Source: Lentisphaera araneosa HTCC2155
Lineage (GTDB): Bacteria; Verrucomicrobiota; Lentisphaeria; Lentisphaerales; Lentisphaeraceae
Assembly (NCBI RefSeq): GCF_000170755.1
Contig: NZ_ABCK01000021.1
Location: 1-64,000, forward strand
Reading direction: 5' to 3'
DNA: 64,000 bases
Both the position numbers and the translations under genes were made by a program. Under the pieces are notes generated by a model. It was not told the DNA's origin. It ran no database searches and saw nothing but the letters and a program-made list of their open reading frames with translations. Each line of letters opens with the position of its first letter. Within the stretch, counting starts at the first letter, position 1. Below, one piece after another: positions 906 to 5,272 of this stretch.

Positions 906-939
906 AGGGTAATTAATGGACATGTCCATTAATTACCCT
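906..939. promoter_or_regulatory. 34-base perfect palindrome upstream of intI
   Basis: The half AGGGTAATTAATGGACA is followed by its exact reverse complement, centred on GGACATGTCC. It ends about 25 bases upstream of the intI start codon, a position suited to an operator over the intI promoter or 5' leader. It could instead be an accessory IntI binding site of attI. Confidence 0.55.
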
Positions 940-1049
940 AATCCTCATTTTTGAGTTCAAAACTCAGTAAAACTTAGAAGATCAAAGCTTCAAAAACAAA
1001 CTTTCCTTAACAAAAGAGTAATTTCTGGACATACCCTCTCCTATTTTTC

Positions 1050-1083
1050 AGGGTAATTAATGGACATGTCCATTAATTACCCT
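1050..1083. promoter_or_regulatory. second identical 34-base palindrome
   Basis: It is base-for-base identical to the palindrome at 906-939, 144 bases further from intI. Identity over 34 bases in otherwise diverged sequence suggests a maintained protein-binding site. Confidence 0.55.
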
Positions 1084-1387
1084 AAACCTGTTAGGAAACA
1101 GTGATTTCAGCTTTCAATCAGCATTTTTACACTTGTAAAAAACACAGCAAAATACTATCCTAAAACATAATGAAACTGGAGAGGAGTTTTTATACACATA
1201 CTGACCATAGCCCCTTTTTACATTGGTGCCCTCAGCACTTTTGATGCGGAGCCTGTCTCGTCCAGACAACAATAACAAGCAAAAAAGTAAACCTTACCAC
1301 CACACTCAAAAACAAAAAATTAGCACTGTCCAGAAATCACCCAAATTTCGAAAAAAAAGCCAAATCAGCCCAAACTCCCAAAAAAAA

Positions 1388-1416
1388 GGTAATTTCCGGA
1401 CATGTCCACTAATAAC
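1388..1416. promoter_or_regulatory. partial palindrome copy at attI
   Basis: GGTAATTTCCGGACATGTCC followed by ACTAATAAC repeats the core of the two perfect palindromes and ends 4 bases before the recombination point at 1420. It may form part of attI. Confidence 0.45.
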
Positions 1417-1436
1417 AATGTTCGGTAATAATAAAA

Positions 1437-4227: not shown

Positions 4228-4596
4228 ATGAAATTCAAAGCAATTGACATAACATTCAGTGAAGATATCACCGATGATATCGTTCAATTATACATATCAT
4301 CACAATATGAAGTACAAGGTGATCTTGAGTATAACTATCCATATATAAACCTTAGTAGGAACTACGAATTCCCAAACTCACCAGCTACTATTCAATGGTA
4401 TGACTCAAATGACAAAGAACATCACGGAAGTAACTCTATTACAGAAATAATAATTTCTAGAGACTGTATTCTTATAAAATTGAATGACGGAGAAATCATT
4501 GAAATCTATATTGACACTTCTTATGAGATATATCTAAAACTCCAAACTTATATTCAAACTATCATTAACGGACATGGAAAATTAATTATAAAATAA
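4228..4596 (+). CDS. cassette 6: hypothetical protein, duplicated as cassette 8
   Basis: 122 residues, soluble, predicted beta-rich, no recognised family. The protein is identical to that of cassette 8 (4904-5272); I see one silent base change in the coding start and one in the leader. The ATG follows the A-rich leader GTAATAAAAA with no Shine-Dalgarno sequence. Confidence 0.78.
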   Translation: MKFKAIDITFSEDITDDIVQLYISSQYEVQGDLEYNYPYINLSRNYEFPNSPATIQWYDSNDKEHHGSNSITEIIISRDCILIKLNDGEIIEIYIDTSYEIYLKLQTYIQTIINGHGKLIIK

Positions 4597-4903: not shown

Positions 4904-5272
4904 ATGAAATTCAAAGCAATAGACATAACATTCAGTGAAGATATCACCGATGATATCGTTCAATTATACATATCATCACAATATGAAGTACAAGGTGATC
5001 TTGAGTATAACTATCCATATATAAACCTTAGTAGGAACTACGAATTCCCAAACTCACCAGCTACTATTCAATGGTATGACTCAAATGACAAAGAACATCA
5101 CGGAAGTAACTCTATTACAGAAATAATAATTTCTAGAGACTGTATTCTTATAAAATTGAATGACGGAGAAATCATTGAAATCTATATTGACACTTCTTAT
5201 GAGATATATCTAAAACTCCAAACTTATATTCAAACTATCATTAACGGACATGGAAAATTAATTATAAAATAA
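4904..5272 (+). CDS. cassette 8: copy of cassette 6 hypothetical protein
   Basis: 122 residues, amino acid for amino acid the same as cassette 6. Only cassette 7 separates the two copies, which fits recent excision and reinsertion or tandem duplication. Confidence 0.78.
   Translation: MKFKAIDITFSEDITDDIVQLYISSQYEVQGDLEYNYPYINLSRNYEFPNSPATIQWYDSNDKEHHGSNSITEIIISRDCILIKLNDGEIIEIYIDTSYEIYLKLQTYIQTIINGHGKLIIK

Follow-up and report, generated by a model that had tools for sequence, protein, structure and literature searches.

Long palindromes in the leader of a Lentisphaera araneosa integron: a possible integrase operator and accessory attI site

The leader of an integron of Lentisphaera araneosa HTCC2155 contains two identical, perfect 34-bp palindromes, one of which covers the putative -10 and +1 of the integrase gene, and a third, degenerate palindrome that reaches into attI. 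The observation is real and unusual. I put at roughly one half the probability that these palindromes constitute an operator bound by the integrase plus an accessory attI site. The sequence analysed, hereafter the window, is a stretch of 64,000 nucleotides whose base 1 is the start of contig C21; the genome scanned comprises 6,023,180 bp in 81 contigs, and the comparison set consists of two further integrons of the same genome, on contigs C10 and C47, one integron of a congener, G005, and the leader of a dead integron on contig C5.

The locus is an integron, in which an integron-type tyrosine recombinase gene is accompanied by attI followed by attC cassettes. The integrase gene, intI-A, is on the minus strand (3–881) and is represented by its 5' 293 codons, which begin with a GTG at 881; the remainder is lost at the contig end, and no contig carrying it was recognised. 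A leader of 538 bp leads from intI to attI, the core of which (1410–1427, plus strand) is composed of the L box CTAATAAC, the spacer AAT and G1420^TTCGGT. This assignment relies on the cassettes that follow attI, whose attC ends have the same ...G^TTMG..., and TAACAATGTT is kept in the attI of C10. The cassette array (1420–32950, plus strand) contains about 48 recognisable attC sites with paired R'' and R' boxes, from 1.8 to 32.9 kb; a cassette promoter Pc was not located in the window. Two clearly distinct attC families, of the ATCTCCCTCA type and of the GAGGAATTTC type, are mixed in this one array (1776–32950), and a cassette gene encoding 122 amino acids is present in two identical copies (4228–4596 and 4904–5272). 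The leader also includes a conserved block (1184–1263, plus strand) made of CTGGAG with its Shine-Dalgarno-like GGAG stretch, a small hairpin and then GATGCGGAGCCTGYCT, which is found in all four attI-bearing IntI-A leaders. The 3' end of the block, ATGCGGAGCCTGYCT, has 10 exact copies genome-wide, and the block is likewise encountered directly behind integrase genes elsewhere (L089, L069, L073, L090, L092, L071).

The preliminary description of the window had reported two identical perfect palindromes and at least three partial copies between intI and attI, and both statements hold. The palindromes P1 (906–939), centred 41 bp upstream of the start codon of intI, and P2 (1050–1083), whose centre is 144 bp from that of P1, both read AGGGTAATTAATGGACA|TGTCCATTAATTACCCT. 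The partial copies are two half-sites identified as sequence matches, AGAGTAATTTCTGGACAT on the plus strand (1015–1032) and GGTGATTTCTGGACA on the minus strand (1327–1341), and the degenerate third palindrome (1386–1417), read as AAGGTAATTTCCGGACATGTCCACTAATAAC over 1386–1416, which has its core CGGACATGTCCA at 1397–1408 and reaches as far as the crossover point of attI, G1420^T. The perfect arms of P1 and P2 are 17 bp long, as compared with a maximum of 9 bp in the rest of the window and of 7–12 bp in 30 Markov shuffles of it, which excludes a chance origin. No terminator was found at the palindromes, and a search of Rfam for a known RNA there yielded nothing but a miRNA match below threshold, which corresponds to the pair of inverted repeats.

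The genome contains six copies of the core GGACATGTCC, five of them in integron leaders: three in the window, one in the leader of the second integron (C10:165425) and one in that of an integrase gene that has decayed (C5:317340). The sixth (C4:296298) is within a sulfatase-like gene, so named from its sequence, and no copy was detected by the genome scan in non-coding DNA outside integron leaders. With as many as 3 mismatches allowed over 20 bases, the longer motif was found in these three leaders only. This confinement, the sulfatase-like gene apart, indicates that the palindrome is neither a mobile repeat nor the mark of a broad regulon; the genome scan, which the preliminary description had proposed, did not turn up the many unrelated copies that would betray a mobile element. 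A dispersed palindromic repeat of the REP type was rejected in the same way, as the scan provided no set of copies in unrelated intergenic regions. The presence of two identical copies 144 bp apart might nonetheless evoke a REP-like or transposon-derived repeat that landed in the leader by chance. Such an origin deserves almost no credence, given that no copies exist beyond integron leaders at the above threshold and that palindromes occupy the same positions in four other leaders.

A putative intI promoter can be delineated on the minus strand (931–960), with a -35 hexamer TTGAAC (960–955), an 18-nt spacer and a -10 hexamer GTAATT (936–931) inside P1. In all five aligned IntI-A leaders, TTGARC precedes the palindrome arm by 18 nt (spacing read from the alignment), and the -10 hexamer inside the first P1 arm is CATAAT in C47 and G005, CAAAAT in C10 and, poorly matched, GTAATT in the window. 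A generic consensus promoter scanner makes no call for it in the window, so the promoter stays a prediction, but its conservation supports the view that both the -10 and the +1 of intI are inside P1. P1 would then have the placement expected of an operator at the integrase gene, in line with the earlier proposal.

Perfect even palindromes of such length over the -10 and +1 are typical of operators bound by dimeric helix-turn-helix (HTH) proteins. One possibility is therefore that a dedicated repressor of this kind, rather than the integrase, represses Pint through P1 and P2. Bound to the third site, the copy next to attI, it would also mask attI and impede access of the integrase. This scenario requires several repressors, however, since C10 and C47 use unrelated cores in one genome, and the lists of open reading frames that flank these operons in C47 and G005, which cover cassettes and distant genes in part, show no conserved repressor gene next to the integrases. 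I regard it as unlikely, though worth keeping in mind.

The position of P1 also brings to mind the LexA (SOS) box, as in proteobacterial integrons, because LexA boxes overlap the -10 of Pint in Vibrio and in some mobile integrons (PMC3108266). The likeness to the CTGTN8ACAG box of those integrons lies in being a palindromic operator that overlaps the -10 of Pint; the Lentisphaera palindrome differs from it in being longer (34 bp), in having another sequence, in being present as two copies plus one at attI, and in varying between integrons. The preliminary description had envisaged a link with lexA and recA, but the palindrome motif is absent upstream of lexA (C4) and of recA (C55). These two promoters share instead a different element, ATTAGTTAGTWAAA (C4:53949–53962 and C55:3843–3856; L016, L086), which has no other exact copy in the genome, is absent from the integron leaders examined and is a candidate for the LexA box of Lentisphaera. 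Moreover, a survey of 1,103 intI promoters with 15 LexA motifs, in which L. araneosa was part of the species set, found boxes of the Escherichia coli type only (PMC3108266). Membership in the class of SOS-controlled integrons was rejected on the ground that the motif is not common to the lexA and recA promoters, and that the palindrome is the LexA box of the genus is very improbable.

The same layout is found in the other integrons with other letters. Palindromes corresponding to P1 and P2 are at matching places in the window, C10, C5, C47 and G005 despite different cores and arms: P1 is centred 38–43 bp before intI across the IntI-A leaders, and the distance from P1 to P2 is 144 bp in the window and C10, 145 bp in C5 and about 156 bp in C47 and G005. 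The leader of C10 contains a perfect palindrome of 40 bp, TTTAGGATAATTATCGGACATGTCCGATAATTATCCTAAA, and, 144 bp nearer to intI, AGGCAAAATAGCGGACATCTCCGATATTTTGCCT, in which 15 of 17 pairs are matched. The core is GGACATGTCC in the window and C10 and GAGTACTC in G005, whose P1 is CCATAATTATGTGAGTACTCACATAATTATGG; C47 combines a less regular version of this P1 with a regular P2, and the P2 of G005 is weak. In C5, where the integrase is reduced to fragments, the core of P1 has decayed. P1 and P2 are letter-identical in the window but differ from each other in C10, which suggests that the two window copies have been homogenised. When each leader was searched without bias for a pair of similar inverted repeats, the result placed the window and C10 above all shuffles and C47 and C5 at a marginal level, and paired operators in single-integrase (IntI-B-only) leaders were at the chance level given by shuffles. 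C47 and G005 are orthologous (85% identity between their IntI-A proteins) and hence do not count as independent cases. Two palindromic elements were also noticed elsewhere: a near-perfect palindrome, AATATTATACGAAGTTCGTATAATATT, similar to P2 of C47, about 118 bp upstream of an intI-like gene of L077 (G130:C59), a relative that belongs to another family; and, in the single-integrase integron L076 (G005:C1:652 kb), GACCGGCTCATA, which is to the left of attI and also in an inverted repeat of the leader.

Where the arms vary between integrons, both sides are altered together (GGGTAATTAAT, GGATAATTATC and GGCAAAATAGC), so that the symmetry of the palindrome is largely kept while its sequence shifts. 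Joint variation of this sort is what a structural element would display, that is, a DNA or RNA hairpin or cruciform selected for its fold rather than for sequence-specific binding of the double strand, and integrases of this family do bind attC as a folded single strand (PMC8946536). The operator of a dimeric protein changes symmetrically as well, however. Besides, the core is nearly fixed within a lineage (GGACAT), single unpaired half-sites occur, and the putative transcript begins inside P1, which would consequently not be contained as an entire hairpin in the RNA. Selection for a fold is thus a doubtful explanation, and I give it a low probability. That the cores of C10 and C47 differ within one genome is hard to reconcile with a single host factor and argues for a regulator encoded by the integron itself.

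The integrases offer a candidate for this role. In C10, C47 and G005 (L012, L069, L073), the leader is followed by a tandem operon of two integrase genes, IntI-A and then IntI-B; the window intI-A fragment is 50% identical to the full-length IntI-A of C10. TIGR02249 is the best family for both (E=2e-43 for the window fragment and 8e-63 for C10), with scores below the curated cut-off, and the closest solved structure is that of Vibrio IntI4 (2a3v). By comparison with the latter, box II, HTLRH, is intact in IntI-B; in IntI-A the corresponding sequence is ASFRD for C10 and DSLRH for C47 and G005, so that the catalytic histidine is replaced by A or D, respectively, while R and Y are retained. The window fragment ends before box II. 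IntI-A and IntI-B both have an N-terminal addition of about 80 residues, which in the IntI-A of the window and C10 matches a second SAM-like domain (PF13495) and may therefore provide these integrases with an extra DNA-binding module. As judged from the leaders compared, the palindromes are associated with IntI-A. Relatives of IntI-A at about 40% identity or more were found in this genus only among 388 genomes of the phylum; searches outside the genus produced none in genome contigs (by protein and by palindrome pattern) or in viral contigs (by protein), databases from which records close to this genome may be absent.

An additional site touching attI had also been put forward, and the third palindrome lends support to this. 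Its right half, TGTCCACTAATAAC, shares bases with the attI L box, begins 18 nt from the crossover and matches the P1 half-site at 12 of 16 positions (16-mer tested), a score equalled by 3e-5 of background windows. In a fixed-register test, the half-site of each integron was compared with the sequence to the left of its own G^TT, at starts from -15 to -21. The best start was -18 in four of four attI-bearing integrons, with 12, 10, 9 and 8 matches of 16 (background fractions 3e-5, 0.002, 0.012 and 0.044). The expectation was set by the window, so that the tests proper are C10 and the non-independent pair C47 and G005, two orthologues in which the half-site is individually weak. A search of the sequence left of attI against its own leader in free register exceeded shuffles for the window and, among single-integrase integrons, for G005c, but showed no excess over shuffles in C10, C47, G005A, C13 and G004. 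The idea that the operator tracks its own attI in every Lentisphaera leader was dropped after this failure, and the claim is accordingly limited to a common position of the half-site at attI in the IntI-A group, without tight co-evolution. To the eye, the half-site resembles the R box or the attC boxes (GTTMG...) only loosely. As a separate observation, two different integrons (L012, L072) have the same transposase-like gene, with the look of the IS91 family, starting right at their attI junction, GTTGTACTAAAAAAC.

The reading of the palindromes as operator and accessory site, already advanced in the preliminary description, is strengthened by the placement at the intI promoter, the site at attI and the restriction to integron leaders, and loses the connection with lexA and recA. 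In the explanation that I prefer, each palindrome consists of two inverted half-sites to which the integrase of the same integron would bind. Binding to P1, over the -10 and +1 of the intI promoter, would shut off the integrase operon by negative autoregulation; P2, 144 bp upstream, might cooperate with P1 in this repression; and the third copy, which shares a half-site with the attI L box, would serve attI as an accessory site. Among the possible binders, IntI-A, the divergent first gene product of the two-integrase operon, would be the likeliest, IntI-B with its intact box II being presumably the main recombinase. A regulator that had diverged in each integron could nevertheless give the same pattern. 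A more elaborate version is tentative and, taken as a whole, improbable: it holds that IntI-A, duplicated and altered in its catalytic box, has turned into an SOS-independent repressor that acts on attI and on the two-integrase operon to which it belongs, with operator and attI co-evolving.

What look like additional integrase half-sites to the left of the attI core are reminiscent of DR1 and DR2, the accessory integrase sites of attI1 in class 1 integrons. The Lentisphaera sites, however, are inverted pairs rather than direct repeats beside the core, an arrangement that does not fit that class, and two of the copies, 337–514 bp from attI, are located at the opposite end of the leader, where the integrase promoter lies. 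Integrases of the lambda type, which have arm-type sites and are subject to autoregulation, offer another analogy, insofar as both may combine at least two DNA-binding modules in one integrase with distant sites that could also serve in control; here the sites are palindromic, the extra domain is SAM-like and autoregulation of the integrase is putative. Control of integrase genes, as described in the literature consulted, is exerted by host regulators, namely LexA, CRP and the stringent response. If the present interpretation is true, a palindrome that is found both at Pint and at attI, and whose sequence is private to each integron, would suggest that the integron controls itself, and it would offer a direct way to ask how integrons that have no LexA box restrain their integrase.
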